From: Gammaproteobacteria bacterium
Lineage (GTDB): Bacteria; Pseudomonadota; Gammaproteobacteria; Steroidobacterales; Woeseiaceae
DNA length: 64,000 bases
Direction of reading: 5' to 3'
NCBI GenBank assembly: GCA_024640305.1
Contig: JAHEFG010000043.1
Location: 186,001 to 250,000, forward strand
The translations under genes were made by a program, and so were the position numbers. Below are positions 10,375-55,986 of the stretch, piece after piece. How positions within the stretch are numbered: the first letter of the stretch is position 1; every line of letters starts with the position of its first letter. The notes under the pieces were generated by a model. That model was not told the origin of the DNA, searched no databases, and worked only from the letters and a program-made list of their open reading frames with translations.

Positions 10375-10404
10375 ACTATACTGCAAACGATTGCAGAGAA
10401 GCAA
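10375..10404 (-). promoter_or_regulatory. probable sigma-70 promoter of the FAD oxidoreductase-cytochrome operon
   Basis: Read on the minus strand, TTGCTT (10404-10399) and TATAGT (10380-10375) are spaced by 18 bases, fitting a sigma-70 promoter. The LacI-type palindrome fills the spacer, so a bound repressor would block RNA polymerase. The transcript would start about 20 bases before the ATG at 10348. Confidence 0.5.
10381..10396. promoter_or_regulatory. LacI-type operator, CTGCAAACGATTGCAG
   Basis: A 16-base inverted repeat with arms CTGCAA/TTGCAG around a central CG, one asymmetric pair. The same core (TGCAAWCGWTTGCA) recurs in five other intergenic regions of the window. The central CG is typical of LacI-family sites. 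It lies between the -35 and -10 of the oxidoreductase operon. Confidence 0.65.
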
Positions 10405-10458
10405 ACTAGTGCGTATTCTCGACCAAACGACGCTGCGAATGCGCGGCGCCCTGGCTAC

Positions 10459-11163
10459 CTAACTAGCAATAGTAAATTCGATTTCGCCTACTTGATCTAT
10501 GCTGCCTGTGATGACATCTCCCGGTTCAACCGGGCCCACACCCGCCGGGGTTCCGGTGTACAGCAAGTCACCTGGCTGCAGGTGGTAGTACTTTGACAAA
10601 TCGGCGATTAATTCAGGCACGTTCCATATGAGGTCGCTAATGTTTCCGTATTGCCTTTGCTCTTCGTTGACTGACAAGCTGATGTCGCCGGAATCGATGA
10701 GCCCCGATTCGCTCACCCTGACAATTTCAGAGATTACCGCTGAATTTTCAAAGTTCTTGCCGAGATCCCAGGGACGGCCTTTGTCGCGGGCTTTGAATTG
10801 AAGATCCCGTCGCGTCATGTCCAGACCACAGGCGTAGCCGTAGATGACCTTCGGTGCGGCCTCTTCAGTGATGCAAAAAGCAGCCTGCCCGATTGCTACG
10901 ACAAGCTCCATCTCATGGTGGAGGTTGCTGGTACCCGGCGCGTATGGAACGGTGGCACCAGATGCAACGATACTGGACGCGCTCTTGATGAAATAGAAAG
11001 GTGCCTCCCGATCAACAGCCATACCCATTTCTTTTGCATGCGCCTCATAATTGCGGCCCACGCAAAAAATACGGTTCACCGGGAACTGCAGGTCGGTTCC
11101 CTTGACAGGCACCGTTGGTAAAGGCGGAGCCGAAAATACTAATGTCGAATGACCACTGTTCAC
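10459..11163 (-). CDS. fumarylacetoacetate hydrolase (FAH) family protein
   Basis: About 234 residues if started at GTG 11163, chosen because AAGGA lies 8-9 bases upstream; an in-frame ATG at 11244 adds a tail without similarity. The FAH fold is clear: IFCVGRNYEAHAKEMG, then HHEMELVVAIG holding the metal ligand Glu residues, GYACGLDMTRRDLQ, and the C-terminal GDLLYTGTPAGVGPV. Members hydrolyse acylpyruvates or isomerise and decarboxylate 2-hydroxyhepta-diene-dioates in aromatic ring-fission pathways, or act as oxaloacetate decarboxylases. It is divergent from the ThDP enzyme gene at 11259. It fits a meta-cleavage or 2-oxoacid route, but the exact reaction is open. Confidence 0.82.
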   Translation of the reverse strand: MNSGHSTLVFSAPPLPTVPVKGTDLQFPVNRIFCVGRNYEAHAKEMGMAVDREAPFYFIKSASSIVASGATVPYAPGTSNLHHEMELVVAIGQAAFCITEEAAPKVIYGYACGLDMTRRDLQFKARDKGRPWDLGKNFENSAVISEIVRVSESGLIDSGDISLSVNEEQRQYGNISDLIWNVPELIADLSKYYHLQPGDLLYTGTPAGVGPVEPGDVITGSIDQVGEIEFTIAS

Positions 11164-11258
11164 TGCTGCTTTCCTTATGGATGTTATAAGCGCGTTAGAT
11201 AATAACTTGATAGTGTGGCTTTGTCCGACTAACTCTGAACCCAAAGGACCTTTGACCG

Positions 11259-12968
11259 ATGTCGCCGAAAAATAAACAAACCGTAGCCGAGGTTATCGTT
11301 GATAGTCTGAAGCGGCATGGAGTGGAGGTGATGTTTTCGCAATCGTTACCTTCAGCGGTCTTGCTGGCGGCGGAGGAGCGAAATATCACGCAATTCATGT
11401 ACCGAACCGAAAATGCCGGTACGGTGATGGCGGATGGCTATGCCCGCACCAGCGGCAAGGTCGGCGTAGTCTCTGCGCAGAACGGGCCTGCAGCGACGCT
11501 GCTCGTGCCAGGTCTGGCCGAGGCACTCAAGGTGTCGGTTCCAATCGTTGCACTTGTTCAGGACGTGGTACGGACACAGGCTGACCGCAATGCTTTCCAG
11601 GAGTTTGATCATATTGCCCTGTTCCAGTCTTGTACGAAGTGGGTGCGCAGGGTAACCGAGGCATCAAGAGTGGTTGACTATATTGATATGGCCTTTGCGA
11701 ATGCGGCGAGTGGGCGGCCAGGCCCGGTCGCATTGATACTTCCCGCGGATCTTCTGCTCGAAGAAATACAGGTTCCTGAATCGCGCTCGAGTAATCTTGG
11801 ATATTTCCCGCTTGATCGCACGGTTGCCGATCCAACCCGGATCGAAGAGGCCGTGGAACTCCTGGCGTCGGCGAGCAAGCCGCTGATCCTGGCTGGCGGT
11901 GGCGTGCATCTCTCGGCGGCAAGCGAAGTCGTGGCGGCATTGCAACGAGATACGCACATTCCGGTGATGACGACCGTGATGGGCAAAGGCGTTGTTGATG
12001 AGCGTCACCCATTATCCGTCGGTGTAACCGGCTACGCGATGGGGAAACTATCGCCGACGCGTTACATGAATGAGATCATTCAGCAGGCCGACGTTATTTT
12101 GCTCGTTGGAACGCGAACCAATCAAAACGGCACCGATTCGTGGGCGCTCTATCCCGAGCACGCACGCTATATTCATATTGATGTCGATGGTGCGGAGATT
12201 GGTCGAAACTACGAAGCATTGCGGCTCAACGGCGATGCCAGGCTTACGCTGGAGGCCATTTACGAAAAGCTCAAAGGACGTCGCGAACCGATACCTGGTA
12301 TCGAAGAACGCATCGCCGAAGCCAGGCAGAAACATGCTGTAGACATCGCAGCACTGGAACAATCGAGCGACAGTCCGATAAGGCCGGAACGAATGGCTGC
12401 TGATATTCGACAGGTGCTAAGCGCGGATATGACGCTTGTTGCCGACGCAAGTTACGCAACGCTTTGGGTGGCTTGTTACCTGCCGTCTCTCAAAGTCGGA
12501 ATGCGTTTTATTACACCGCGCGGCCTGGCTGGGCTTGGCTGGGGGTTGCCACTGGCTATCGGTGCGAAGGTCGCCAACCCGGATAGCCCGGTATTGTGCA
12601 TGGTTGGCGATGGTGGTTTTGCGCATGTCTGGTCCGAACTCGAAACCGCGGCGCGCCGAAAGACACCGGTGGTGCTGACCGTTCTCAATAACAGTTGCCT
12701 GGGGTATCAAAAGGATGCCGAGGATGTGAAGTTCGGGCGCCACAGCACTGCCTGCTATTTTACGCCGGTCGATCATGCGGCGATCGCGCGTGCCAGTGGC
12801 TGCCGCGGTATCCGCATAGAAAAGGCTGATGAATATCTGCCGGCGCTGCGTGAGGCGCTGGAGTGTAACGAAACGACCGTACTGGACGTCGTAACCGACC
12901 CGGCGGCCTATCCACCGGTAACGTTTTTTGACGGACTCGACGATATCCGTGAATCGAAAGCACAATAG
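11259..12968 (+). CDS. thiamine diphosphate-dependent enzyme, acetolactate synthase/benzoylformate decarboxylase superfamily
   Basis: 569 residues with the three-domain arrangement of the POX/ALS family. The N-terminal pyrimidine domain has the catalytic Glu51 in YRTENAGTVMADGYAR. The middle domain contains KPLILAGGG. The C-terminal PP domain has the ThDP motif GDGGFAHVW ending with VLNNSCLGYQ. It would decarboxylate or ligate 2-oxoacids. No regulatory subunit gene is near, so it is unlikely to be the biosynthetic acetolactate synthase. It starts the + block with a crotonase and a hydroxyacid dehydrogenase, which suggests breakdown of a 2-oxoacid intermediate. The precise substrate is unknown. 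Confidence 0.82.
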   Translation: MSPKNKQTVAEVIVDSLKRHGVEVMFSQSLPSAVLLAAEERNITQFMYRTENAGTVMADGYARTSGKVGVVSAQNGPAATLLVPGLAEALKVSVPIVALVQDVVRTQADRNAFQEFDHIALFQSCTKWVRRVTEASRVVDYIDMAFANAASGRPGPVALILPADLLLEEIQVPESRSSNLGYFPLDRTVADPTRIEEAVELLASASKPLILAGGGVHLSAASEVVAALQRDTHIPVMTTVMGKGVVDERHPLSVGVTGYAMGKLSPTRYMNEIIQQADVILLVGTRTNQNGTDSWALYPEHARYIHIDVDGAEIGRNYEALRLNGDARLTLEAIYEKLKGRREPIPGIEERIAEARQKHAVDIAALEQSSDSPIRPERMAADIRQVLSADMTLVADASYATLWVACYLPSLKVGMRFITPRGLAGLGWGLPLAIGAKVANPDSPVLCMVGDGGFAHVWSELETAARRKTPVVLTVLNNSCLGYQKDAEDVKFGRHSTACYFTPVDHAAIARASGCRGIRIEKADEYLPALREALECNETTVLDVVTDPAAYPPVTFFDGLDDIRESKAQ

Positions 12969-13004
12969 CGCGGTGGCCCTGCGGCCCACAGTGAGAATCT
13001 GAAA

Positions 13005-17445: not shown

Positions 17446-17459
17446 TGCAATCGATTGCA
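17446..17459. promoter_or_regulatory. LacI-type operator, TGCAATCGATTGCA
   Basis: A perfect 14-base palindrome with a central CG, 15 bases past the molybdenum hydroxylase stop and 91 bases before the LVIVD gene. It is followed at once by TATACT (17461-17466), a plausible -10, although I find no good -35. It matches the motif found in five other places in the window. Confidence 0.7.
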
Positions 17460-17550: not shown

Positions 17551-19086
17551 ATGACAGTCATTAATATGAAACGCGTATCCGAATTATCGGCATTGCTGTT
17601 GCTGCTGGTCGGCCTTCCTGTAACAGCGTTTGGAAATGCTCACCCACATCCGCGAGCAGATAGCCTGCCATATCTGGATCAGTCGACTTACATACGAAAC
17701 ATGGCAGTTCGTGCCCATATTGGTGGCGACAATCGCCGCTGGAAAATGCAAATGATGTCTCTCGGTGAGCGACGCTTCCTGATTCAGGGAGGGAAACCGA
17801 AAGGCAGTGTCATCGAGGTTACGGATCCGCTGAATCCTGTGGTCATTAACGAAGATGCCTTTGTTGGAAATCAGCTGCAGCTTGGTTACAACGCCGATAT
17901 TGGCAAGTGGATTCTTATGACCGGCGCAGCACCGCCGCTGATCAGGGCGACGACGGAGTTTCCACATGGCAAGTACGATGATCCGGGTGCCGACGCACGG
18001 GTGAAAAACCACGAGGGACTGCGCGGGGTTCGTTTCTACGACGCCACTGATCCATACGACATCAAACTGCTTTCCGAATTCAGTACTGATCTCGGTGACC
18101 CTGCCCGCAAGAAACAGACAGGTGGCGGTACACACCGGGATTATTATGACGGCGGTAAGTACGCCTTTCTCGATGCTGCGCCAGATGACTCATTCACACA
18201 TCAGGAGAGCCCGGTGCGTGTTCATTCTCACGGAGTCATGGTGGTTGATGTTTCTGATCCCGCGGCGCCGAAACATGTTTCCCACTGGTGGTTACCTGGC
18301 CAGCGCGAAGATGAGCAAGAGGAATACAAGGCCTGGCGAGAGCACGGTGATGGTGAGTCATTTACAGGATTGCATGGCGCATTCTATGTGCCGCGCAAAC
18401 TTGAAAATGGCGGCAAACTGAGTTTCAGCCCCTGGGGATCTCTTGGCGTCTTTATTCATGATTTCAGCGACCCCGCCGCACCGAAATTAGTGGGGCGCTT
18501 TCAGGGTCCGTACAAACCCGGTGGGATCGCATTTCACTCCGTGGACGTAGCCAGGGTTGACCGGGGGTTCGTCATAGGCGCACCCGAAACGCTAAATCCG
18601 GATTGCAATGAGCCGTATCACCATAGCTACATCATTGATATAAGCGACCCGGCGAATCCGCAGGAAATATCCACGCTGCCAATACCGCGTCCGCCTGAAG
18701 AAGCGCCATACGATAATTTCTGCCAGAAGCGGGGACGTTTCGGTCCGCACAATCCGCCACACCTCAAAGCGCCGGGTAAGGCTGATCCGGATTTCACTTG
18801 CTACACCTTCTTCAACGCTGGCCTGCAGTGCTATGACATCAGCGAACCTGCGTACCCGCGTATTTCGTCCTACTTCATTCCGCCGCAGGGCGGTGACCTC
18901 GATAAACCAGGCAGCTATACACGTAATACGGATAATGTGTTCATAGAGTGGGATCGCAAACTCATATGGGCCGCGACCGATACAGGGCTTTACCTGCTGA
19001 CTACGCCGGAGCTCGGAGACCCCGTACTCGAACCGCAGCCGATATCCGAGTGGAACCTGCCGGACCTCAACCGGGTTGCTGATTAG
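17551..19086 (+). CDS. exported LVIVD repeat-containing protein
   Basis: 511 residues with a signal peptide (LLLLVGLPVTAFGNA) and several LVIVD-type repeats, visible as VEVTDPLNPVVI, VVDVSDPAAPKHV, IHDFSDPAAPKLV, IIDISDPANPQEI and YDISEPAYPRIS. Such repeats form a beta-propeller of unknown function, usually outside the cytoplasm. Two Cys-containing segments (NPDCNEPYHH, FTCYTFFNAGLQCYD) and several His suggest a metal or disulfide site. The ATG has AAGGGGAA upstream. A perfect LacI-type operator precedes it and the DUF5916 barrel gene follows 12 bases after its stop, so these two form an operon. A catalytic role is possible but cannot be shown. Confidence 0.75.
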   Translation: MTVINMKRVSELSALLLLLVGLPVTAFGNAHPHPRADSLPYLDQSTYIRNMAVRAHIGGDNRRWKMQMMSLGERRFLIQGGKPKGSVIEVTDPLNPVVINEDAFVGNQLQLGYNADIGKWILMTGAAPPLIRATTEFPHGKYDDPGADARVKNHEGLRGVRFYDATDPYDIKLLSEFSTDLGDPARKKQTGGGTHRDYYDGGKYAFLDAAPDDSFTHQESPVRVHSHGVMVVDVSDPAAPKHVSHWWLPGQREDEQEEYKAWREHGDGESFTGLHGAFYVPRKLENGGKLSFSPWGSLGVFIHDFSDPAAPKLVGRFQGPYKPGGIAFHSVDVARVDRGFVIGAPETLNPDCNEPYHHSYIIDISDPANPQEISTLPIPRPPEEAPYDNFCQKRGRFGPHNPPHLKAPGKADPDFTCYTFFNAGLQCYDISEPAYPRISSYFIPPQGGDLDKPGSYTRNTDNVFIEWDRKLIWAATDTGLYLLTTPELGDPVLEPQPISEWNLPDLNRVAD

Positions 19087-19098
19087 CGCCGCCTCCAA

Positions 19099-21288
19099 AT
19101 GCGTTTATCGCGAGGCATCTGGAGAAGCCGTACGGTATTTCTGCTGACGGCTTGTGCCGCCAGCCTTAACGCCACGGCGGCCGACGAACCAGCTGTCGCA
19201 AGCACAGCGGTCAAGACCGTGTGTCTTGAGTATCAGCAACGGAATATTGCACCGGTAATCGATGGTGTACTGGACGATGCTATCTGGGCTCGTGCCACTC
19301 GTATCGATGACCTGCACCAGTTTCAGCCCGTTGACCATGGTGAGCCAACAGAAAAATCGGAATTCTTCATTTCCTATGATGAAGAATTCCTCTATGTCGG
19401 CGCCCGTTTGTACGATAGTGACCCGGCGGCGATAAGTGCGCGCCAGCTGGTGCAGGGTAAAACGCTTAAATTCGACGATGCCATCGAGTTCCTGCTCGAC
19501 CCGTTCGAAACGCGCCGGACGGGCTATTGGTTTCAGCTTAACCCCAACGGTATTCGCAGGGATGGTGTCTATGAAAGTGCAACCGAAATCAATCGTGATT
19601 GGGATGGTATCTGGAACGCACAGGCGAACATTGATGAACTCGGCTGGACTGCAGAGATAGCAATACCGTTCAAAACGTTGAACTTCAATTTAGGTAACAG
19701 CAAATGGGGTTTCACGATCGCGCGTACCATAGCGCGGAAAAAGGAAGAGATAGCCTGGTCGTCATTTGACCGGGCCATAAACCCCGGCTCAGCTGGTTTT
19801 CTGGACTGTATCCGTGACATTCGGCAGGGTCGCGGGCTGGACATCGTACCTTCCGTGGCGCTTAACCAGTCGAAAGACTTCACCGCCGGAAGTACGTCCA
19901 GCGGCATGGAACCATCGCTGGATGCTTATTTCAAAATCACACCGTCGCTGACGGCAGCGCTTACTCTCAACACGGACTTTTCGGCGACCGAGGTCGACGA
20001 TCGGCAAGTCAACCTGACCCGCTTCTCACTTTTTCTTCCCGAAAAGCGACAGTTCTTCAATCAGGACCTGGATATTTTCAGTTTCGGCGGGCTCGAGGAA
20101 AATGGACGACCATTTTTTTCGCGACGGCTTGGCCTGAGCGACTCCGGAGAGCCCGTAGACATTCTGGCTGGAGGAAAACTTTCCGGCCGAATCGGACGAT
20201 GGAACATAGGAGTTCTCGATGTCCTCCAGGATGAATTCGCGGATGTTGATAAAGCTAATGTGTTCGTCGGCAGGGCGGCTGCCAACATTATGCAGGAGTC
20301 CAGCGTGGGGCTCATCTACACGAATGGAAATCCGCAGGCCAACCTGGATAACCAACTATTTGGTGTGGATTTTCGCTACAGGAATACTCGGGCAATCCCG
20401 GGGAACACTATTCAAGGTGTAGCCTGGTATCAACGCTCGGATACTGAGGGCATAAATTCGGATGAAGAGGCTTACGGCTGGCGCGTCGAGTACCCCAACA
20501 GTGAGCGATGGTTTGGCGAGCTGGGACAGTGGACTATCGAGGAGAATTTCAATCCGGCAGTCGGGTTTGTAAACCGCGCCGATATCGTCGGTACCAAAGC
20601 TGAACTGGGTTATACGTTCACGCCGAACGGCAAATTCCTTCGCAACGTTACGTTCAAGTCAATCTTCGAGAATATCGATAACACCGACGGCGCACTCGAA
20701 AGTCGCGAATTCGTCCTGGAACCCTTCAGTGTTGAAACGCAACATGGAGATTTTTTCGAGATACGCCTGAGGCAACTGGACGAAGTTCTTGTTGAGGATT
20801 TCGAGATTAGTCCCGGCATAGTCATAGGCGCAGGTGCCTATACATTTGATCGAGCGCAGTTCGTTCTTGAGTCTGCACTGGAGCGACGCTTCGCGTTGAG
20901 CTTCGATATCGATACTGGTGAGTTCTATGACGGTGATCTGTTCAAAATTGGTGGTGACCTAAGCTGGCGACCAAGCAGGCATCTTTTCTTCCAATTTGGC
21001 TACGAGTTTAATGATGTTGAGTTGCCACAGGGCGCATTTATCACGCGCCTCCTGCGTCTGCGCGCCGATGTGGCCATTAGTGCGAAATGGTCCTGGCTGA
21101 ACGTTCTGCAATATGACAACGTCAGCGAGACGGCGGGCTTTAACAGTCGCTTGCGCTTTAATCCGCAGGCAGGTCAGGACATGTTTATCGTCGTGAACCG
21201 GCAGTTCAACATTGATCCACTGAATAGCCACGCGAGTTCAGCAACCTCCGAAATCGTACTGAAATTTCGCTATACATTTCGTTTCTGA
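19099..21288 (+). CDS. outer-membrane protein with CBM9-like and DUF5916 beta-barrel domains
   Basis: 729 residues. The N-terminal signal region ends near AASLNATAADE. The first 200 residues are a family-9 carbohydrate-binding-like beta-sandwich (IDGVLDDAIWARATRI, EFLYVGARLYDSDP, DAIEFLLDPFETRRTGYWF, GWTAEIAIPFKTL). The rest resembles DUF5916, with alternating amphipathic strands and a C-terminal Phe (FRYTFRF), as expected for an outer-membrane barrel. DUF5916 proteins are of unknown function and often sit near peptidase or hydrolase genes. Here it follows the LVIVD gene by 12 bases and precedes a GST by 7. It may bind or pass the substrate across the outer membrane. Confidence 0.78.
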   Translation: MRLSRGIWRSRTVFLLTACAASLNATAADEPAVASTAVKTVCLEYQQRNIAPVIDGVLDDAIWARATRIDDLHQFQPVDHGEPTEKSEFFISYDEEFLYVGARLYDSDPAAISARQLVQGKTLKFDDAIEFLLDPFETRRTGYWFQLNPNGIRRDGVYESATEINRDWDGIWNAQANIDELGWTAEIAIPFKTLNFNLGNSKWGFTIARTIARKKEEIAWSSFDRAINPGSAGFLDCIRDIRQGRGLDIVPSVALNQSKDFTAGSTSSGMEPSLDAYFKITPSLTAALTLNTDFSATEVDDRQVNLTRFSLFLPEKRQFFNQDLDIFSFGGLEENGRPFFSRRLGLSDSGEPVDILAGGKLSGRIGRWNIGVLDVLQDEFADVDKANVFVGRAAANIMQESSVGLIYTNGNPQANLDNQLFGVDFRYRNTRAIPGNTIQGVAWYQRSDTEGINSDEEAYGWRVEYPNSERWFGELGQWTIEENFNPAVGFVNRADIVGTKAELGYTFTPNGKFLRNVTFKSIFENIDNTDGALESREFVLEPFSVETQHGDFFEIRLRQLDEVLVEDFEISPGIVIGAGAYTFDRAQFVLESALERRFALSFDIDTGEFYDGDLFKIGGDLSWRPSRHLFFQFGYEFNDVELPQGAFITRLLRLRADVAISAKWSWLNVLQYDNVSETAGFNSRLRFNPQAGQDMFIVVNRQFNIDPLNSHASSATSEIVLKFRYTFRF

Positions 21289-21295
21289 AAACGCG

Positions 21296-22066
21296 ATGCC
21301 GAGAATTACTCCTCGTAATAGGGCCGTACGCGAATTAAGGGGCCTGCATCTTTATCATGCGGGCTGGTCCAATTGCTCCATGCGGGTTCGCATGACCCTG
21401 GAGGAAAAAAACCTTCAGTGGGTCAGTCATCATCTCAACACACGTATAGGCGAGCACATTACTCCGGAATACTTCGGCATCAACCCTAATGGGCTGGTCC
21501 CGACGCTGGTGCATGACGGTGAAGTATGGATCGAGTCCTGCGACATCATCCGTTACCTTGATGATCTTTATCCTGAACCTCCACTCACGCCTGCCAACGG
21601 CGAGCAAATTGCGGAACTTGCACAATGGCTGAGTCTCGCATCAGCCATTCACGTTACGGCAGTAAAGACATATATCTATGCTACGCGGCCGCACGACAAG
21701 CGTGGCAAAACTCGAGACGAGCTGGAGCGTTACCGCAGCTTGCAGACGAATGAGGAATTGCTGGCGTTCCATGCAAGGAGTTCCAGTGAAGATGGCATAA
21801 GCGAAGCTGATCGAACCACGGCCGAAAACCTGTTACATGATGCTTTCGAGATGCTCAATACTCGCCTGCGTCAACACCGCTGGCTTGTTGGAGACGATTT
21901 CACACTGGCGGATATCACCTGGGTACCACTTCACTACACCTTGGAGCGGGCCGGGTTTTCGTTTGCTCCGCACGAGCACGTGACGACCTGGGCCGGCAAC
22001 GCTGCCGCTCGCCCGAGTTTTCAAAAAGCTGTGGCGCAGTGGTTTGATGGTCCGCGTGAAGCTTAA
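21296..22066 (+). CDS. glutathione S-transferase family protein, Cys type (PcpC-like N-terminus)
   Basis: 256 residues. The thioredoxin-like domain begins near residue 18 (LHLYHAGWSNCSMRVRMTLEEKNL) and has NPNGLVPTLVHD and ESCDIIRYLDDLYP. The helical C-terminal domain contains LVGDDFTLADITWVPL. The N-terminal CSM(R/K) pattern resembles tetrachlorohydroquinone dehalogenase PcpC, where this Cys forms the mixed disulfide with glutathione. A dehalogenase, ether lyase or glutathione-conjugate reductase role is therefore possible. It follows the DUF5916 barrel by 7 bases, so it is probably in the same operator-controlled transcript. Confidence 0.8.
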   Translation: MPRITPRNRAVRELRGLHLYHAGWSNCSMRVRMTLEEKNLQWVSHHLNTRIGEHITPEYFGINPNGLVPTLVHDGEVWIESCDIIRYLDDLYPEPPLTPANGEQIAELAQWLSLASAIHVTAVKTYIYATRPHDKRGKTRDELERYRSLQTNEELLAFHARSSSEDGISEADRTTAENLLHDAFEMLNTRLRQHRWLVGDDFTLADITWVPLHYTLERAGFSFAPHEHVTTWAGNAAARPSFQKAVAQWFDGPREA

Positions 22067-42694: not shown

Positions 42695-44626
42695 TTATTC
42701 TTCTGTCAGCGTATAGGCGACAATCGCGTCGCCTTCTTCCGTAAAGGCTCGGCGGTTTCCGCCCGCCGCTATCACGATGAATTGCTTGCCATCTGCCATG
42801 TAGGTCATCGGCACAGCCATGCCGGCGTAAGGCAATTTGTCCTGCCACAGCTCGGCACCAGTATTGATATCCAGTACGCGAAGTTTCTTGTCCATGGAGG
42901 CCGCCATGATGATGATTCCACCGGCGGTAACAATCGGGCCACCGATAATCACCGAGCCCCATGATTCGGGAAAGGTCATACCGTAGCGCCGGCTCTGGCC
43001 GAACGGCCGGTGCCACTGAACCCTGCCAGAATCCATGTCGATCGCAGTCAATGTGCCCCACGGCGGCGGAGTGCAGGGTACTCCGCTGGGAGCCTGAAAG
43101 TTTTCCGTCTTTGTGGAATAGCGCGTGCCCGGCATCGGGTCGCCGGTGCCATCCCGGTAGCTACTTCCAGGAACCTCATCCTCGCCGCCCGCTGTCGGCA
43201 GTGGCGTAATTTCGCCATTCTCGTTCGGAATCAGCCAGTGCTGCGTGCCGACGGTCATTGATTTGATGATGAGCAGGTTGGAGTTCGGATCAAACGCAGC
43301 ACCGCCCCAGTTGCCACCGCCGCCAAAGCCGGGGAAATGCAAGGTGCCGGCTTCGCTGGGCGGGGTGAACATGCCGTCATATCGTAATTCGTCAAAACGC
43401 TTCTGACACCACGAGCGACCCATAAAGGTCATGCCGAACATGTCGTCACGGGTGAGTGTGGTGCGCGTAAAAGGTTCGGGTAGCAGCGGGAATGGTTGCG
43501 TGGCTGACGTCTGCTCACCTGGTACATCCGACGTTGGTACAGGACGTTCCTCGATCGGAAAAACGGGTTCACCATTGTCACGATCAAACACGAATACATA
43601 GCCTGCCTTGGTTTGCTGGATGGCAACTTCGCGCGGCTCGCCACTTTTATTGATCGTCACCAGCAGCGGATGGCCGGGCAGGTCGTAGTCGTAGACGTCG
43701 TGATGAACGATTTGGTAGTGCCATGCGGGCTCGCCTGTACTGGCGGATAGCGCGACCGTCGCAGTGGCATACGGAATATCGAACTTGCGGGTACCGCCAT
43801 AAAAATCCGATGAGGGACTGGTGGTTGGCAGAAATACGAGACCACGTTCCAGGTCGGCGCTGAGTGTAGACCAAACGTTGGCGGCGCCAGTGTCATGCAC
43901 ATGCTCGGGAGGAATCGGGTTGAACTCCCAGCGAAGTTCGCCTGTGCGCACGTCAAAGGCGCGGACGAAACCGTCGCTTGCATCGACGGGGCTGTCCTCA
44001 ACACCGACTGCGGCAATGACCAGGTCATCGACCACTATGGGCCCCGACGTCGAGTGGCGCGGTCCCGGGCCATTGCCTTCGTAGTCCCAGTGGCTGGCGT
44101 AACCAGGGTGACCATCTTTGGCGCCAAAATCGCGGCAGGACTTACCGGTGTCGGCATCGATCGCATAAACATTGCCATTGATGTCGGCTTTGAATACGCG
44201 CCGCTCACAAGGAGTCCCGGGCTTCGGATGCGCTGCCTCCCAGTAGGCGACACTGCGACACCTGACCGCCTGGCGTGGCTGGTCGATGAGGCCTTCCCCG
44301 CCTTCGCTTTTGTGCGGATCAAAACGCCAGCGCTCAGCACCGGTCACCGGATCGAGCGCGATGACACGATTCATAGGGGTGCAGTAATAAAGTGAATTGT
44401 TGGCGTGGATTGGCGTCGCCTGCAGCCAGGCCTTATCGCCGGAGAAGTGCGTCCACGCAACCTCGAGGCGACCTGCGTTGGACGCGTTGACCTGATCGAG
44501 CGCGGAATACTGGCCGCCACCGGAGTCGCCACCAAAGGTGGGCCAGTCGGCGCTGGATTGCGCCATCGCGCAGTCGCCAAGCAGGTTGGCGAGGACAAGC
44601 GGCAACAGCAAACGTGACACCCACAT
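42695..44626 (-). CDS. periplasmic PQQ-dependent dehydrogenase (membrane glucose dehydrogenase-like, without membrane domain)
   Basis: 643 residues with a signal peptide (cleavage near AMAQSSADW). The beta-propeller has the repeated W-motifs of quinoproteins: WTHFSGDKAWLQATPI, GELRWEFNP, GRVQWHRPFG, GAELWQDKLP. The segment IVHHDVYDYDLPGHP matches the active-site stretch of glucose/quinate dehydrogenases. It lacks the N-terminal membrane helices of Gcd and any cytochrome domain, so it needs a separate electron acceptor. Its divergent neighbour is a flavocytochrome, and a LacI-type operator (44691) lies between them. Its substrate is likely an alcohol, polyol or aldehyde. Confidence 0.85.
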   Translation of the reverse strand: MWVSRLLLPLVLANLLGDCAMAQSSADWPTFGGDSGGGQYSALDQVNASNAGRLEVAWTHFSGDKAWLQATPIHANNSLYYCTPMNRVIALDPVTGAERWRFDPHKSEGGEGLIDQPRQAVRCRSVAYWEAAHPKPGTPCERRVFKADINGNVYAIDADTGKSCRDFGAKDGHPGYASHWDYEGNGPGPRHSTSGPIVVDDLVIAAVGVEDSPVDASDGFVRAFDVRTGELRWEFNPIPPEHVHDTGAANVWSTLSADLERGLVFLPTTSPSSDFYGGTRKFDIPYATATVALSASTGEPAWHYQIVHHDVYDYDLPGHPLLVTINKSGEPREVAIQQTKAGYVFVFDRDNGEPVFPIEERPVPTSDVPGEQTSATQPFPLLPEPFTRTTLTRDDMFGMTFMGRSWCQKRFDELRYDGMFTPPSEAGTLHFPGFGGGGNWGGAAFDPNSNLLIIKSMTVGTQHWLIPNENGEITPLPTAGGEDEVPGSSYRDGTGDPMPGTRYSTKTENFQAPSGVPCTPPPWGTLTAIDMDSGRVQWHRPFGQSRRYGMTFPESWGSVIIGGPIVTAGGIIIMAASMDKKLRVLDINTGAELWQDKLPYAGMAVPMTYMADGKQFIVIAAGGNRRAFTEEGDAIVAYTLTEE

Positions 44627-44690: not shown

Positions 44691-44704
44691 TGCAATCGTG
44701 TGCA
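44691..44704. promoter_or_regulatory. LacI-type operator, TGCAATCGTGTGCA (imperfect)
   Basis: It matches the consensus TGCAAWCGWTTGCA at 13 of 14 positions; as a palindrome it is imperfect. It sits 65 bases before the PQQ dehydrogenase start and 52 before the flavocytochrome start, so it could control both directions. No other intergenic bases here stand out. Confidence 0.55.
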
Positions 44705-44755
44705 TGAAACTGGCAGCATAACCTATCAAGCGACGAAATAGGGGTGGGGCACGAT

Positions 44756-46525
44756 ATGGCGCGAAAGATTTTTCACCGTGTTTGGCGTGTTGTCGCTTGC
44801 CTTGCTGCCGGTGCTGCGCTGTTGCTGAGCGCCTCATGCGGGCAACAGAAAGCGGTCGAGTTGGACGCGCAGGTGATCGTTATCGGTGCCGGCTTGTCAG
44901 GGCTGTCCGCGGCCGTGGAAATGGGTCGCAGTGGCCTGAATGTGCTGGTGGTCGACATGAATTCCGTTGCCGGTGGTCACACGATGTTGGCAGGCGGTGT
45001 CGCCATGGCTGTTACGCCACTGCAGGAGCGTCTCGGCATCGAGGATTCAGCTGAGCTGGCCTACGCTGACTGGATGGCCTGGACCAAAGATGGCGACGCC
45101 GAGTGGACCCGGTTTTACGCCAGCAATTCACGCCCGATGGTCTATGACTGGGTTACCGAAATGGGCGTCGAATTTGTCCGCGTGGCACCCAGCCATGGCA
45201 ACAGTGTGCCTCGTTTCCATTTTACCCGGGGTCGCGCAGCGCACCTGGTCTTGCCGATTTATCGAACTGCACTTGGTATGTCGAACATATCGTTTCAGTG
45301 GAGTGCCCAAGCGGAGGAGCTGCTCCTCTCGGACGGACGCGTTACGGGTGTCGTGGTGAAGGATCTGCGCAGTGGCAAGGTGCGTCGCTTGACGGCGGAC
45401 AACGTGGTGCTTGCCACCGGAGGTTTTGAATCTGACGTCGAGCGCGTGCTCGCTAACTGGATTCCAGGCTTGCCGCGGCCCGATCGCCTCCTGATTGGTT
45501 CCGCTATCAGCGCGACGGGCTCCGGACATGATATGGCGACTGGCGCCGGAGCTGCGCTGGACAAGATTAACCGACATTTCATCTATGTGAATGGTGTTGT
45601 CGACCCGCGCGATCGGCAGCAGAGCCATGCTTTGACCGCGGGTAATGATCAATCGTTATGGGTAAATGCCAGCGGTCAGCGCTTCACCAATGAGGCGGGC
45701 TTCGAAAAGGATGTCCTTGCCGACCTGGTGCAACAGAAGCCATCCACGTACTGGATGGTTTTCGATGCCGCAACTCGTGACAGTTTCGGCGTGCGTGGCG
45801 CCGCCTGGCTGAACAATTCGTCAGAAGAGCATCCGATATTGGACAATCCCAATGCGACAAAGCGCGCACAGAGTTTGCCCGAGTTGGCAGCAATGTCCGG
45901 GCTGCCGCCCGACGCTCTTGTGCAAAGCGTGGAGGAATACAATGCAGCAATCGATGCTGGCGAAGACACGGCATTTGGTCGCTTTGCGCACGGCGAAAAT
46001 GTGCCGCCAAAAATTCAACAGCCACCGTTCTACGCGGTCCAGGTGTTTCCTGTAACGCGTAAAAATATGGGTGGTGTCGCCATCGACAGGCAAGCGCGCG
46101 CACTAGATAAGTCAGGTCAGGTTTTGCCTGGTTTGTATGCGGTTGGAGAACTGAACGGCAGTCTCGGTATCAATGGCATGTTTGGCCTCGACGGCATGTT
46201 TCTCGGTCCGGCAATTCTAAGTGGTCGAGTTGCCGCGCAAAGTATCGTTGCGGCAACTACGGCGAGGACGAACGTACCCGAAATTGCGCCCGTCGAGCCT
46301 TCGCGTAACGTTGGCGAGTGGCAGCCGACACTGACTTCCGAAGGCCTGGAAGCGATGCTCGCAATGCAACGCGATGGCTACTGGCACTTTCAGGTATCGC
46401 ACCAGTTGGTCCTGGAACGAAACTACGAATGCACTGATTGCCATTCGGCGCAGCTTCCGTTCGCACCCGTAAACGATCATGCAAGTCGCCTGTTGCAGGC
46501 AGAGGTCTGTGCGACCTGTCACTGA
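44756..46525 (+). CDS. lipoprotein flavocytochrome c: fumarate reductase-type flavoprotein with C-terminal diheme tail
   Basis: 589 residues. The N-terminal signal ends with lipobox LLSASC. The FAD domain begins QVIVIGAGLSGLSAAVEMGRSGL; the fumarate-reductase-type flavoprotein fold continues with GGHTMLAGG, LATGGFESD and the C-terminal LYAVGELNGSLGINGMFGLDGMFLGPAILSGRVAAQS. Two heme c motifs follow at the very end: CTDCH and CATCH, the latter ending with the last residue. Known soluble flavocytochromes c of Shewanella carry hemes at the N-terminus, so this order is unusual. Start ATG 44756 has GGGGTGGGG upstream; GTG 44744 is also possible. It probably reduces or oxidises a periplasmic organic acid or keto compound. 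Confidence 0.85.
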   Translation: MARKIFHRVWRVVACLAAGAALLLSASCGQQKAVELDAQVIVIGAGLSGLSAAVEMGRSGLNVLVVDMNSVAGGHTMLAGGVAMAVTPLQERLGIEDSAELAYADWMAWTKDGDAEWTRFYASNSRPMVYDWVTEMGVEFVRVAPSHGNSVPRFHFTRGRAAHLVLPIYRTALGMSNISFQWSAQAEELLLSDGRVTGVVVKDLRSGKVRRLTADNVVLATGGFESDVERVLANWIPGLPRPDRLLIGSAISATGSGHDMATGAGAALDKINRHFIYVNGVVDPRDRQQSHALTAGNDQSLWVNASGQRFTNEAGFEKDVLADLVQQKPSTYWMVFDAATRDSFGVRGAAWLNNSSEEHPILDNPNATKRAQSLPELAAMSGLPPDALVQSVEEYNAAIDAGEDTAFGRFAHGENVPPKIQQPPFYAVQVFPVTRKNMGGVAIDRQARALDKSGQVLPGLYAVGELNGSLGINGMFGLDGMFLGPAILSGRVAAQSIVAATTARTNVPEIAPVEPSRNVGEWQPTLTSEGLEAMLAMQRDGYWHFQVSHQLVLERNYECTDCHSAQLPFAPVNDHASRLLQAEVCATCH

Positions 46526-46581: not shown

Positions 46582-47643
46582 TCAGCTGATCTGCAATAGT
46601 TTCAGCAGGTTGCCCCCGAGGATTGCTTCCTTCTCGGCATCGCTGAGATAGGAGGCATTGAGTATGAGGTCCAGTGTATCGGGCCAGCTGAACGGCAGGT
46701 CGGTACCGTAGACCACCTGGCCGGCACCCATCTCCGCCACCAGGTGCCGCAGACCCTCGTCCGTGAAGACCATCGAATCAGCGAGAATTTGCGACTTCAG
46801 GTATTCGGACGGGCGTTTCTGGTTGGCGCAGTTGGCATTGCCCCTCACGTCGCAGGCGACCTCGGTGCGACCCAGGTAGGAAGGCAGGTAACCACCGCCG
46901 TGCGCCGCACAGACTTTTAACTGCGGGAAGCGATCGAAGACTCCGTCGAAAATCATGTGGGAAAGAAACGTTGTGGTCTCGAGCGGGTTGCCAATGATAT
47001 TGCCAAGATCGCCGCGACCGTCGAACCCACCCTCTTTGACAAGGTACTCGGCGCTGCTTGGGTGCATGAACACCGGAACCTCCAACTCCTCGGCCTTGGC
47101 CCAGAATGGGTCGAAGCGCTCGGATGACGGCGGCACGCCGTTGACGTGCCCACCAATCGAAGCACCGCGATGGCCCAGTTTGGTGACGGCGTATTCGAGT
47201 TGTTCGGCGGCCAGGTCGGGATGCTGCAGTGATACCGTGCTCAAAGCCACGAAGCGATCGGGATGATCCGCGCACCATTCGGCAAGACCCTCGTCCTGGG
47301 TGCGGGTAATGCGCCGCGCCAGGTCGGCATCGGCAGCGTACCACCAGTACTCATTAATACTGAGCGCCTGAATGTCGACGCCGAGTTTGTCCATCCGCTC
47401 GAGGCGCCTGGGCCCCAGCAGTCGGATGCCGCCGACCGTCATCTCCAGCGGCGTGCCACTGACTATTTTTTCGACCGCCGGAATACCGCAGTGCGCGTGG
47501 ATGTCGACGACTTGCACTCGATGGCCACCGATCGATATCTTCCGCCGGGCTGGCTGCCCTGCAGAAACCGAGTAAGGGCCGAGGGCAAGTCCTGCAGCTC
47601 CTGCATAGGCTACGGTCTTCAAAAATGTTCTACGGTCCGGCAT
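46582..47643 (-). CDS. Tat-exported amidohydrolase, ACMSD family (amidohydrolase 2)
   Basis: 353 residues with a twin-arginine leader (PDRRTFLKTVAYAGAAG). The metal motif HxH is in VVDIHAHCGIP; a further His is in GHRGASIGGH, the next in VCAAHGGGYLPS, and the final Asp in VYGTDLPFSWPD. ACMSD-type enzymes decarboxylate or hydrolyse aromatic and cyclic acids (aminocarboxymuconate semialdehyde, hydroxybenzoates, LigJ-type hydratase) and are normally cytoplasmic. A Tat leader is unusual for them. It is divergent from the CocE hydrolase gene, with a promoter and LacI-type operator between. Confidence 0.84.
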   Translation of the reverse strand: MPDRRTFLKTVAYAGAAGLALGPYSVSAGQPARRKISIGGHRVQVVDIHAHCGIPAVEKIVSGTPLEMTVGGIRLLGPRRLERMDKLGVDIQALSINEYWWYAADADLARRITRTQDEGLAEWCADHPDRFVALSTVSLQHPDLAAEQLEYAVTKLGHRGASIGGHVNGVPPSSERFDPFWAKAEELEVPVFMHPSSAEYLVKEGGFDGRGDLGNIIGNPLETTTFLSHMIFDGVFDRFPQLKVCAAHGGGYLPSYLGRTEVACDVRGNANCANQKRPSEYLKSQILADSMVFTDEGLRHLVAEMGAGQVVYGTDLPFSWPDTLDLILNASYLSDAEKEAILGGNLLKLLQIS

Positions 47644-47700: not shown

Positions 47701-47729
47701 TTGACAGGGCTTGGGGGCCATGATTTACT
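47701..47729 (+). promoter_or_regulatory. probable promoter of the CocE-type hydrolase gene
   Basis: A consensus TTGACA (47701-47706) is followed after 17 bases by TTTACT (47724-47729). The LacI-type operator begins at the last base of the -10, covering the start site. Confidence 0.55.
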
Positions 47730-47742
47730 GCAATCGTTTGCA
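47729..47742. promoter_or_regulatory. LacI-type operator, TGCAATCGTTTGCA
   Basis: A 14-base site with arms TGCAA/TTGCA and central CG, one asymmetric pair, in the gap between the divergent amidohydrolase and CocE-type hydrolase genes. Same motif as five other intergenic sites. Confidence 0.68.
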
Positions 47743-47815: not shown

Positions 47816-49519
47816 ATGACAATCAAATCACCAACAAATGTCGTGCTGCGTCTTCTTGCTGCAGCGGGCCTGCTCATCGCATTGCAGCCGGTGGCAGCCA
47901 CCGCCGACGAGGCCCTGTCACAGCCCGAATATGGCGTCGTCTTCGAAAAAGACGTTGCGATCCCGGTACGTGACGGAACGGTATTGAGGGCCGACGTGTA
48001 TCGTCCCGATGTCCCGAATGCGGCTGCTGCTGATGCCAGGTTTCCGGTTCTCGTCAGCCTGAGCGCGTATCAAAAGAGCATGGACCGTGTCTTGCCGCAT
48101 GTCAGGCCGTTTACCCATGTAGAACGGCCCGAGCCTGACTGGTGGGTAGCTCGCGGCTATGTGCTGGTGTTCATCGACACTCGTGGCACCGGGACGTCAC
48201 CAGGCAAGGCCGACATCTGGTCGATGCAGGAAACTCGTGACTATTACGACGCGATCGAGTGGGCAGCGCGGCAGGACTGGAGTACCGGCAAAGTAGGGCT
48301 GTCCGGCGTGTCCTATTACGCGATCACGCAATGGAATGTTGCCAGTTTGCAGCCGCCGTCGCTGACAACGATCGTGCCATGGGAGGGTTGGGCCGATCTG
48401 TACCGGGACTCGGTGTTTCACGGTGGTGTTCTCAACCAGGCGTTTTACGGGCGCTGGTGGATCGATGTCGTCGGCAAGCAGTTGCTCGAGTTTACTCGCG
48501 CTGATAACTCGGCTGCCTTCGACGAAAACCTGATGTGGAATTTCATGACCCATCACACGGATAGCGCCTGGTGGGACGAGGTGAAATCCCGGGCACAGTT
48601 CGACAAGATCACCGTGCCGCTCTACAGTTCCGGCAACTGGGGTGGTTGGAACCACCATCTGCGCGGCAACATTGACGCTTATGTGCGCTCGGCGTCGAAG
48701 AACAAAAAATTGCAGGTACATATCGGCGGGCACACCGACGCTTTCTACTCGGATGAAGGCAAGACAGAGATGCTGCGCTGGTATGACTACTGGCTGAAGG
48801 GCAGGGACACCGGCATCATGGACGAACCGCCGGTAAAAATCTGTGTGCGCGTCAGTGTTGACGAGTGCAGCTGGCGATTCGAAGATGAATGGCCGCTCGC
48901 GCGAACGCGTTACACCAAGTATTACCTGAGTGCGGAGACCGCAGGCGTCGTCGACGATGCAATGCACGATCTTCGTCTGGTCGCTACACCGCCTGTGAGA
49001 AAGGACGAGATCACGTTTCCGTCCGGGCCGGAGGCATACAGGCGCGGCGTCAATGGGCAACCTATGGTGTCGTTCGTGACCGAGCCCATGACCGAGGACG
49101 TCGAGGTCACCGGTCACATTAACCTCAAGATGTGGGTGTCCTCCGAAACGGATGATATGGACGTGTTCGCCTATTTGCGCAACGTGGCACCTGACGGCAG
49201 CGTCGAGACGGCTACGCGCGGCATTCTGAAAGTGTCACATCGCAAACTCGATCGGGAGCTGTCCACGTCCTACCGGCCATATCACACCCACGACGAGGAA
49301 TGGAAACTGATGCCGGGCGAGATCGTACCGATCGAGGTCGAGATCTGGGCGACCAGCATGGTATTCAGGAAGGGACACCGCATACGCCTGGACGTTCAGC
49401 CACACGATGGCGATCACTACTTCGCTGCGTATAAGCTCAAGGACAACAGTATTTATGTCGGGCCGGACCACGCGTCCCACGTATTGCTGCCGATCGTGCC
49501 GCGGCGGGAGCAAGACTGA
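47816..49519 (+). CDS. exported CocE/NonD family hydrolase (X-Pro dipeptidyl-peptidase-like)
   Basis: About 567 residues from the ATG at 47816 (MTIKSPTNVVLRLL), which gives a signal peptide ending at AATADEA; the longer frame from 47711 reads through the operator. The N-terminal alpha/beta hydrolase core has VPVRDGT, the oxyanion strand FIDTRGTGTSPG and the nucleophile elbow GLSGVSYYA. A C-terminal jelly-roll domain (LKMWVSSETDDMDVFAYLR, GHRIRLDVQPHD) is typical of CocE. Members cleave esters, amides or glutaryl acyl groups. It is exported here. The Abhydrolase_10-type gene convergent at 49538 may work with it. Confidence 0.86.
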   Translation: MTIKSPTNVVLRLLAAAGLLIALQPVAATADEALSQPEYGVVFEKDVAIPVRDGTVLRADVYRPDVPNAAAADARFPVLVSLSAYQKSMDRVLPHVRPFTHVERPEPDWWVARGYVLVFIDTRGTGTSPGKADIWSMQETRDYYDAIEWAARQDWSTGKVGLSGVSYYAITQWNVASLQPPSLTTIVPWEGWADLYRDSVFHGGVLNQAFYGRWWIDVVGKQLLEFTRADNSAAFDENLMWNFMTHHTDSAWWDEVKSRAQFDKITVPLYSSGNWGGWNHHLRGNIDAYVRSASKNKKLQVHIGGHTDAFYSDEGKTEMLRWYDYWLKGRDTGIMDEPPVKICVRVSVDECSWRFEDEWPLARTRYTKYYLSAETAGVVDDAMHDLRLVATPPVRKDEITFPSGPEAYRRGVNGQPMVSFVTEPMTEDVEVTGHINLKMWVSSETDDMDVFAYLRNVAPDGSVETATRGILKVSHRKLDRELSTSYRPYHTHDEEWKLMPGEIVPIEVEIWATSMVFRKGHRIRLDVQPHDGDHYFAAYKLKDNSIYVGPDHASHVLLPIVPRREQD

Positions 49520-53952: not shown

Positions 53953-54984
53953 CTATTTCCTGGATTTAGGTGGGGCCGTCGACGCTCGGATTATCAATTC
54001 GGGTAGCAGGTTGACGGTTCTCACCTTGGAGTCCACATCATTGATTCTTTCCAGCAGTAGTGCTGCGGCCTGCTTGCCTATCTCGTCATGCGGGATGCGC
54101 AGTGATGTGAGTGGGGGAGACAGCCGGTTCATGAACGGCATGTCATTGAAGCCTGTGACCGATATATCTGCAGGGCAACTCAGACCGCGTTCGGCCATCG
54201 CGTCATAGCAACCAAGTGCGAGGAGATCGTTGGCGGCGATTACGGCCGTGAATTTCCGGCGCTTTTCGAGAATCGACACGAAACCTCTGTGGCCCTCTGC
54301 CTCGGTGAATGCTTTGCAATTCAGGATGAGATCGTTATGCGACTTGAATGAACCCTCGCGCATTAACTTCTTGAATGCCAGGAAGCGGTCATGTCCGGTC
54401 GAGGTATCCTGCGGACCACCAAGATAGGCAATCGACTTGTGACCAAGGCCGACGAGATGGGAGACGGCGAGTTCAATGCCATGTTCATCATCATTGATCA
54501 CAGCAGTCACTGAATGTGTATCTATGGTTCGGTTAACCAGCACCAGTGGCACGTGGTCTTCGACAATGGTGCTAACGACGGCGTCCAGTCGATGTGCGGT
54601 GGCGAGAATCAGGCCGTCCACATTGCGTGACATTAGCGACTGCACAATTGCAGTTTCATTTTTCTGGTTGTTATCGGAATCGGCAAGTATGGCGATATAT
54701 CCCCGGTCGGCCAGCGTTTTCTCTATTTGTCGAATGATTGGGGGAAAAAGCGGGTTGGTTAAATCAGGTATGACAACGCCAATCGTATGTGTGCGCCCGG
54801 TTCGGAGTCCGTAAGCGAGCGAGCTGCGCGCATACCCCATTTCGGCCGCAATTCGGGTAACCCGATCAGCAACCGGGCCGGAAACCATCGACCGAGTCTC
54901 CGGGTTGAGAACTCGGGAGACCGTGGATGGATGAACCTTCGCCTTGGCAGCGACATCCTTGATATTGACGTTTCTTTTCGCCAT
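53953..54984 (-). CDS. LacI-family transcriptional regulator
   Basis: 343 residues. The helix-turn-helix is VNIKDVAAKAKVHPSTVSRVLNPE, the hinge helix SSLAYGLRTGRTHTIGV, and the effector domain begins PDLTNPLFPPIIRQIEKTLADRGY and ends with MNRLSPPLTSLRIPHDEIG. It resembles the regulator at 7063-8091 over its whole length. It lies between the SuyAB-like genes (convergent) and the TauE/SafE gene (same direction, 94 bases apart). The TGCAAACGATTGCA site at 55973 is within 1 kb, so it is a good candidate to bind that family of sites. Ligand unknown. Confidence 0.88.
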   Translation of the reverse strand: MAKRNVNIKDVAAKAKVHPSTVSRVLNPETRSMVSGPVADRVTRIAAEMGYARSSLAYGLRTGRTHTIGVVIPDLTNPLFPPIIRQIEKTLADRGYIAILADSDNNQKNETAIVQSLMSRNVDGLILATAHRLDAVVSTIVEDHVPLVLVNRTIDTHSVTAVINDDEHGIELAVSHLVGLGHKSIAYLGGPQDTSTGHDRFLAFKKLMREGSFKSHNDLILNCKAFTEAEGHRGFVSILEKRRKFTAVIAANDLLALGCYDAMAERGLSCPADISVTGFNDMPFMNRLSPPLTSLRIPHDEIGKQAAALLLERINDVDSKVRTVNLLPELIIRASTAPPKSRK

Positions 54985-55078: not shown

Positions 55079-55843
55079 TTACGTCGGTATAGAACGCACA
55101 ATATCGATGACGAGTTTGAGCTCCATCGCAATGAAGAGCGCTACCAGGATATTGTGAAACGCTTTTTCGCTGATGCTCCGTGACCAGCGGATCCCGAGCT
55201 GCGTGAACAGCAGTGTTGGCACAACGACAATAAGCCCGATTGTCAGTCTCTCCGGCGTGAATAGCTGCAGTTCGAACATTGCAACAATCTGCGCAACACT
55301 GAATATCAGGAATGTAAATGCGGTCGCAAACGCATAGGTTTCCCTGACCAGGCCAGATGCGTGAAAGTACGGCGCAACAATGGGCGCAGATATTCCGCTG
55401 GCCCCCTGTATGGTGCCGGCGGCGATACCCAGAATGGAACCGAAGCCGCCGCTGCCGCTGAAATATCGGTCATATGATCGCCTGGAGAAGTACTGCAACA
55501 GGTAAACGCCCAGCCAGATGGCAAGTATCAACTTCAACCAGTGATCGTCGAGAACCGACAAAAGCCAGGTTCCCAGCACGCCGCCCACCAGCCCAAGCAC
55601 CAGGAACCCTTTATGTTCCCGCAGTATTGCCCACTTTCTGTGAGTAGCGACAAGCCAGCCGTTCGCAGCAAAACCCGGCAGCACCATAAGCACGACGGCT
55701 TCTTCGACGCTCGTGAATGACGCCAGCACTGGTACAGCCAATATCGGCAAGCCGACCCCGGTTATGCCCTTGGCGAATGCCCCCAGGCCTATGGTCACCA
55801 TGGCTAACACCAACAAGCCTAAGCTGATCGAACTCATGTCCAT
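55079..55843 (-). CDS. TauE/SafE family membrane protein (sulfite/organosulfonate exporter type)
   Basis: 254 residues with eight hydrophobic segments. The TauE/SafE repeats are recognisable: GLGAFAKGITGVGLPILAVPVLASF near the N-terminus and GSILGIAAGTIQGASGISAPIVAPYF in the second half. Members export sulfite or sulfoacetate, or import other anions (CuyZ, SafE, TauE). Its place next to the SuyAB-like genes fits the export of sulfite. It is transcribed away from the dehydrogenase gene at 56025, and a LacI-type operator lies between. Confidence 0.82.
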   Translation of the reverse strand: MDMSSISLGLLVLAMVTIGLGAFAKGITGVGLPILAVPVLASFTSVEEAVVLMVLPGFAANGWLVATHRKWAILREHKGFLVLGLVGGVLGTWLLSVLDDHWLKLILAIWLGVYLLQYFSRRSYDRYFSGSGGFGSILGIAAGTIQGASGISAPIVAPYFHASGLVRETYAFATAFTFLIFSVAQIVAMFELQLFTPERLTIGLIVVVPTLLFTQLGIRWSRSISEKAFHNILVALFIAMELKLVIDIVRSIPT

Positions 55844-55940
55844 AGGTTGATCCTCTTGCTTTTCGACGCCTGAGCCACCGGCATCGGTCAGCTGGCGTCA
55901 GGCCTGTGCATGCCCGGGGTGCTTAGGGCGCCGCTCAAAC

Positions 55941-55968
55941 TTGCTTAAAGTTGATGACACTTTATAAT
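55941..55968 (+). promoter_or_regulatory. probable promoter of the hydroxyacid dehydrogenase gene (56025)
   Basis: TTGCTT (55941-55946) and a consensus TATAAT (55963-55968) are spaced by 16 bases. The LacI-type operator starts 5 bases after the -10, covering the transcription start. Confidence 0.6.
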
Positions 55969-55972
55969 GGCG

Positions 55973-55986
55973 TGCAAACGATTGCA
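55973..55986. promoter_or_regulatory. LacI-type operator, TGCAAACGATTGCA
   Basis: A 14-base site with arms TGCAA/TTGCA and central CG, identical to the core of the 10381 site. It lies 39 bases before the dehydrogenase ATG and in the shared region with the TauE/SafE gene. Confidence 0.7.

Follow-up and report, generated by a model that had tools for sequence, protein, structure and literature searches.

What is the role of a short palindrome that recurs between the catabolic genes of an environmental bacterium, and how many regulators read it? The question is raised by a stretch of 64,000 nucleotides from a Gammaproteobacteria bacterium of the Woeseiaceae (GCA_024640305.1, contig JAHEFG010000043.1, positions 186,001 to 250,000), here called the window; coordinates without a prefix refer to it. 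The 14-mer TGCAAWCGWTTGCA would be the operator of a LacI-family regulon over one catabolic island of about 65 kb. In the draft genome the sites are largely confined to this island, they are conserved in related genomes, and they are associated with the genes of two LacI-family proteins, LacI A and LacI B. We suggest that these two paralogous repressors read two spellings of the operator, and we give this full explanation a probability of roughly two in three. It is nearly certain that these sites are genuine and have a regulatory role, and there is strong support for a LacI-family regulon whose centre is a single catabolic island. LacI B as the putative reader of the motif is well supported, and LacI A as the putative reader of the variant is supported with exceptions.

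A pattern scan of the window finds exact copies of TGCAAWCGWTTGCA at 10382-10395, 17446, 28915, 47729 and 55973, and a copy with one mismatch to the consensus, TGCAATCGTGTGCA, at 44691. An earlier note on this DNA had described one motif repeated in six intergenic regions, which is confirmed, as are its two perfect palindromes (17446 and 28915). Its first site had been placed at 10381-10396; the motif is there, with the exact 14-mer at 10382-10395. The weak copy reported at 28936 is also present, with two mismatches, but it recurs only in G077 and is not counted as a core operator. At up to two mismatches the window holds 7 sites, against a mean of 1.38 in 100 shuffles (maximum 5; 0/100 reach 7).

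The genome-wide scan that the earlier note had proposed was run on the draft genome of the organism (G000; 2.81 Mb, 46 contigs, 78% complete), and it did not refute the regulon. All five exact copies in the draft lie within the window, and the reversed-pattern control gives 0. With one mismatch allowed there are 10 sites, and 8 of them fall inside C13:176562-241986, i.e., the ~65-kb island, which starts 9.4 kb upstream of the window. The binomial probability of at least 8/10 sites in this span is 3.7e-12, an optimistic value because the boundaries were defined by the sites themselves. The two island sites upstream of the window are L016:10562, before a pair formed by an FrsA-like gene and an unassigned open reading frame (ORF), and L016:16351, before an M24-family gene. 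The two sites outside the island, C13:365256 within a mechanical ORF of 143 aa and C22:94932 among short mechanical ORFs, look like chance matches. At up to two mismatches the draft has 47 sites vs 16 for the reversed control, and those with two mismatches are therefore mostly background. The 46-kb system of the earlier note is indeed one island, but it is corrected to ~65 kb with eight promoter regions, of which two lie outside the window on its upstream side.

The operator is an even palindrome with a central CG, and it lies upstream of its targets, as expected of a LacI regulon. Its base composition is partly circular, as the sites were picked by consensus, and six genomes (G001, G006, G057, G058, G071, G105) were dropped from it. 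The mechanically longest ORFs overlap the sites at 28915, 47729 and L016:10562. Downstream of the operator there is an in-frame ATG at 29020 for the TonB receptor and at 47816 for the CocE hydrolase, and these are the probable starts. Orthologue alignments start downstream of the operator for TonB in G003, G063, G010 and G076 and for CocE in G003; they cross it in G077 (both genes) and G045 (TonB), where the query itself began upstream.

Facing HIBADH2, the HIBADH-family dehydrogenase gene next to the site at 55973, a TATAAT lies 4-5 nt before the site in 8/12 gaps; in two more the distance is 9 and 11 nt, and the remaining two lack it. This puts the operator over the transcription start of HIBADH2 and therefore in a repressor position. 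In a promoter scan with textbook hexamer matrices all eight operators fall between -45 and +18 of the best predicted start, a result that is biased because the TTGCA of the operator can itself act as a -35. The promoter facing TauE-LacI B is predicted solely by this biased scan. Of the promoter evidence we rely on the TATAAT spacing in orthologues alone, and the TATAAT faces HIBADH2 and not TauE. A general promoter scan of 44000-57000 showed no excess (8 vs 7.1 expected).

Conservation in the 107 genomes of the family links the motif to LacI B. Exact TGCAAWCGWTTGCA occurs in 22 of them: in 11/11 genomes with a LacI B orthologue (>=63% identity) vs 11/96 without (Fisher p 2.3e-9, with relatedness ignored). 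All 12 gaps before HIBADH2 genes of >=70% identity contain the site, 11 exactly and one with one mismatch (G003); 11 of these genomes are those with LacI B, and the remaining one, G045, was selected for its site. An identical 14-mer precedes TonB in 7/7 genomes, the window's included, whose fetched stretches hold TonB at >=60% identity, some of them fetched because of the site. Many stretches were chosen for a site or a LacI gene that they contain, and the conserved-gap counts are consequently partly selected; the M24 and LacI sets were assembled independently of the sites.

Within the gaps, the operator stands out as the most conserved element. It ranks 1 of 168 14-mer windows in the TauE/HIBADH2 gap (10 relatives), 1 of 261 before TonB (5 relatives) and 1 of 242 before M24 (11 relatives), and it is tied for top at the MoCo/LVIVD gap (3 relatives). 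G077 was dropped from all these rankings as too close. The M24 ranking used 11/15 relatives, and the four found later (G011, G049, G070, G092) have sites at two mismatches. Where a single relative could be compared, the operator shares the top rank before flavocytochrome c and the FAD oxidoreductase (FADox), and the CocE gap has a longer stretch of equal conservation; these three gaps say little because of the single relatives and the ties.

LacI A and LacI B both score above the cut-offs for PF00356 and PF13377, i.e., for the LacI helix-turn-helix and a periplasmic-binding-protein-like effector domain, and belong to the LacI family. They are not orthologues of PurR (A 170 and B 192 bits, cut-off 501) or RbsR (A 223 and B 233 bits against 382; A 164 and B 196 against 531); among solved proteins, PurR is the best sequence relative of LacI B. 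At a cut-off of E 1e-60, 17/107 genomes have a LacI of this type. At >=60% identity the orthologues form two groups, B in 11 genomes and A in 11 intact copies plus one broken. In the tree A and B each form one clade (100/100) and are sisters (97/94), with the actinobacterial homologues outside; it is midpoint-rooted on a long branch, and homologues were sought with LacI B as sole query. It holds 10/11 intact A rows; the A of G076, split between two stretches, was left out. The G066 copy (L091:2031-3041) matches in three pieces and is apparently broken; an A-type site still precedes M24 there. The recognition helix starts with HH in A and HP in B (HA in G066), which is a correlation only.

The layout of both genes suggests autoregulation. 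The site lies before TauE-LacI B in the window and in 9/9 relatives with all three on one fetched stretch, and in L025 it lies 260 nt before LacI B. Likewise, LacI A closes the M24 run with the A-type site, on a single contig, in G000, G003, G045, G047, G076 and G066 (broken A); it does not do so in G011, G049 and G070. An operator in the promoter region of its own unit is the mark of a local autoregulator, co-transcription and a promoter facing TauE being predicted for LacI B.

The two spellings can be compared at the M24 promoter. Among all 16 genomes with close M24, TGCACACGTNTGCA (A-type) is found in 12 and TGCAAWCGWTTGCA (B-type) in four. The four B-type genomes have LacI B and no detected A, and nine of the 12 A-type genomes have intact A, the others being G052, G066 and G092. 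All nine with intact A have the A-type site. In 7/12 A-type M24 promoters a second site with 2-3 mismatches lies 109-231 nt further upstream and might allow looping. The variant TGCANACGTNTGCA occurs 10 times in four genomes where A but no B was detected (reversed control 1), beside LacI A, M24 or FADox or on the G047 island contig, and 0 times in four genomes with B and no detected A (reversed control 2). These counts used four of the six genomes of the first kind (G045 and G076 left out) and four of the five of the second (G052 left out), with G066 in neither set. The association of A with the exact variant has a Fisher value of 1.2e-8, with the broken G066 gene counted as A; Fisher values overstate independence here because the genomes are related. 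In G011 and G070 the M24 site lies 1.2 Mb from LacI A or on another contig, and neighbourhood alone therefore does not explain the link.

At other promoters the spelling varies too. The 59% FADox homologue of G070 has an A-type site, and FADox in G000, G077 and G003 a B-type one. In G011, G049, G070, G047 and G076, HIBADH2 homologues (54-57%) lie opposite M24, and A-type sites are present. An A-type site precedes the unassigned ORF of the FrsA pair in G000, G003, G052 and G077, and in G049 a 1-mismatch A-type site, CGCACACGTTTGCA, lies in the gap between this ORF and LacI A.

We suggest the following mechanism, in which we infer binding, repression, the code, the effector and co-transcription from sequence. 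A LacI B dimer would bind TGCAAWCGWTTGCA over or beside promoters and keep the genes off, its own TauE-LacI B unit included, until it is released by an inducer, which is probably an intermediate of the pathway. The sister paralogue LacI A would bind TGCANACGTNTGCA before M24 and, in the window's genome, also before the FrsA-like gene and its neighbour, the LacI A gene itself being the far end of the M24 run. At position 2 from the centre LacI B would accept A or T, and at position 3 it would require A; LacI A would require A at position 2 and accept other bases at position 3. The site TGCAAACGTTTGCA at the TonB promoter could then suit both. LacI B would be expected to prefer TGCAATCGATTGCA and TGCAAACGTTTGCA, LacI A TGCAAACGTTTGCA and TGCACACGTTTGCA.

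Several observations weigh against this explanation. B-type sites are carried by G045 (one) and G076 (two), where A was found and B was not detected; the TauE contig ends where B would be in G076 but not in G045. G052 has two A-type sites and no A was found (it is 76% complete, and its contig stops at the gene that precedes A elsewhere), G066 has one with its broken A, and in G092 (64% complete) the M24 site is A-type and neither repressor was found. With the broken gene not counted, intact A and site type at the M24 promoter are associated at p 0.011. FADox in G076, its 59% homologue in G063 and, in G045 and G011, the unassigned ORF of the FrsA pair are preceded by neither site type, and the hybrid site at 44691 fits neither code. 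The M24 proteins of the four B-type genomes form a separate group (68-69% identity), and a single event may therefore account for the swap at M24; the swaps at HIBADH2 (54-57%) and FADox (59%) are weak, as these genes of the A-only genomes may be paralogues. There are further exact copies of TGCACACGWTTGCA (TGCACACGTTTGCA), two in G016 and one in G101, at a distance from close island-gene matches. To these are added the 11 site-bearing genomes without LacI B and the extra sites of G003 and G010 near TctA/alpha-beta hydrolase genes, of which the window's genome has none. The two copies in G016, a small genome with no LacI A or B at 1e-60, are ~11 kb apart (L169:4943 and 15876), on a stretch with a 27% LacI homologue and distant TonB, ThDP, ALDH and MFS matches.

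The earlier note had favoured one shared regulator. A LacI regulon on one catabolic island holds, while two paralogous LacI proteins are now preferred to a single one, despite the genomes listed above. LacI B alone could read all sites, with A-type sites as its weaker targets and LacI A controlling something else; the spellings do differ at few positions, and both co-occur in genomes with both genes. However, this is improbable given the 10 A-type sites in the four genomes where A alone was found and none in the four where B alone was found. Less improbable, though still unlikely, is that every site is bound by either paralogue with little discrimination and that the spellings reflect lineage drift. 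The TonB site TGCAAACGTTTGCA, which satisfies both codes and is present in G047 (A, no detected B), the B-type sites of G045 and G076 and the lineage difference between M24 groups would agree with it; against it, the M24 spelling matches the resident paralogue in 13/15 genomes with either gene, the exceptions being G052 and G066.

Readers outside the LacI family, or no reader at all, have far less in their favour. Two GntR genes lie inside the island, GntR-FCD (31678) and GntR-UTRA (51631), and either might bind the motif. Nevertheless, the usual form for LacI proteins is an even palindrome centred on CG in the parts of PMC4052901 drawn on here, and the fetched stretches of G048, G050 and G073 have LacI B and two sites with no match to either GntR, so that we regard this as very improbable. 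A chance or structural repeat without regulatory role, to which the two 1-mismatch sites outside the island might point, is scarcely credible: it is contradicted by the genome-wide confinement to the island and by the conservation in orthologous gaps, and a chance origin was rejected on these two grounds.

As judged by position, the eight promoter regions would serve the following genes. The first serves FrsA and the unassigned ORF, with cupredoxin/cytochrome and WD40-like genes. The second serves the M24-ALDH-E1-glyoxalase-E2-DctPQM-GST-LacI A run, whose A-type operator, L016:16351, is 3.6 kb upstream of the window; its distal part covers 17..8091 (+) and includes LacI A (7063..8091, +; assigned by Pfam and tree). 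The third, an exact B-type operator (10382..10395; same gap in G077 and G003), is upstream of the FAD oxidoreductase and a multihaem cytochrome (8097..10375, -). The fourth, also exact and B-type (17446..17459; same gap in G077, G003, G076 and G091), lies between the Mo-oxidoreductase and the LVIVD, DUF5916, GST and FG-GAP genes (17551..23736, +). A molybdopterin-binding subunit (15214-17430; best solved relative 8gy3_C) is matched by family models in shuffled order, residues 31-167 matching a later part of the model than residues 260-459.

The fifth region has the exact operator that fits both codes (28915..28928) and the weak copy (28936..28949; similar in G077, none here in 5 other genomes), between TctA, an ORF without Pfam match and two GSTs (23750..28738, -) and the TonB-dependent receptor (29020..31602, +, from the probable start). 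The sixth has the hybrid (44691..44704, one mismatch) between an MFS transporter with a PQQ dehydrogenase (41312..44626, -) and flavocytochrome c (44744..46525, +); TGCAATCGTGTGCA recurs before flavocytochrome c in G077 and, on the opposite strand, in G003. The seventh, an exact B-type operator (47729..47742; also before CocE in G077 and G003), separates an Amidohydro_2 protein (46582..47643, -) from the CocE/NonD hydrolase (47816..49519, +, likewise from the probable start). The eighth, exact and B-type (55973..55986), separates HIBADH2 (56025..56963, +) from a TauE/SafE exporter (55079..55843, -), probably co-transcribed with LacI B (53953..54984, -; Pfam LacI/Peripla_BP_3).

The clues to the substrate (GST, amidohydrolase, dehydratase, M24) point different ways, and we claim none. 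Of the four GST genes identified in the window (6264, 21296, 26963, 27944), that at 27944-28738 has as its best PDB sequence match LigF (E 4.5e-23), which we take to be a lignin beta-etherase; the amidohydrolase resembles ACMSD/LigW. At 52468-53941 a short ORF, a putative partner subunit, is followed by a galactarate/altronate-dehydratase C-terminal protein (UxaA-like), which has the look of a two-subunit dehydratase in split form. TauE and the split dehydratase led us to consider a sulfonate pathway, which is not claimed; the dehydratase matched galactarate dehydratase alone, below cut-off. The M24-family protein upstream of the window (L016:16455-17759) has 4s01/4rzy as nearest solved relatives, presumably the dimethylsulfoniopropionate lyase DddP. 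It scores 114 bits against the DddP equivalog cut-off of 600, and the alignment suggests that some aspartates, which we take to be metal ligands, are replaced.

Related loci exist outside the phylum. We analysed 14 actinobacterial loci (L026-L039), each with a LacI B homologue at 43-48% identity. In 13/14 there are nearby homologues of HIBADH2, M24, Mo-oxidoreductase, LVIVD, FAD oxidoreductase or E1/E2, the FADox and LVIVD matches being weak (24-38%); L027 shows an SDR alone. Nine loci hold 28 sites at <=1 mismatch (reversed control 0 in 272 kb). All nine are Mycobacteriaceae and, being close relatives, count as few events; the 5/14 loci without a site weigh against the explanation. The Bacteroidota locus L040 (26% identity) and the partial L041 were left out of the 14 and have one 1-mismatch site each, that of L040 (L040:9911) ~90 nt before its distant LacI homologue.

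It can be speculated, tentatively and with some doubt, that a phylum-crossing, undescribed catabolic pathway with a core of M24-fold protein, HIBADH-type dehydrogenase, Mo-oxidoreductase and LVIVD protein is run by a duplicated LacI switch. Its paralogues would have changed the strictly read operator position (3 from the centre in B, 2 in A) and would sense two different intermediates, with the TonB uptake promoter answering to both. In the literature on the organism group and on LacI regulons and paralogues, neither the island nor the paralogue split was found among the matches listed. The shared operators give a regulatory handle on a large uncharacterised catabolic island, whose operator-bearing genes can be treated as one system. 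Genomes that seemingly keep one paralogue are a natural experiment on the operator divergence of duplicated LacI repressors, and the occurrence of related loci in environmental Mycolicibacterium means that the substrate can be sought in cultured species.

A LacI regulon is a kind of system already known. The core GCAAACGTTTGC of the operator is, as we take it, the PurR core. However, A and B fall far below the equivalog cut-offs of gammaproteobacterial PurR and RbsR, and the island targets look catabolic, unlike the purine genes of PurR. In the parts of Ravcheev et al. 2014 (PMC4052901) drawn on here, PurR and RbsR are described as paralogues with changed motif or ligand. The local LacI regulons of that study, in the same parts, share with the island the CG-centred even palindrome, the upstream positions, autoregulation and a regulator near its targets. 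They mostly cover one or two operons of sugar pathways, whereas here there are 8 promoter regions in one island with no obvious sugar pathway. A global LacI regulator is defined there by >15 genes, at least 7 operons and several pathways, a size that would be reached if the island gene runs are operons. A parallel to the proposed pair may be AraQ/MalR1 of Bifidobacterium (PMC6882875), where two LacI-type proteins also act on one metabolic area, although in a different phylum and pathway.

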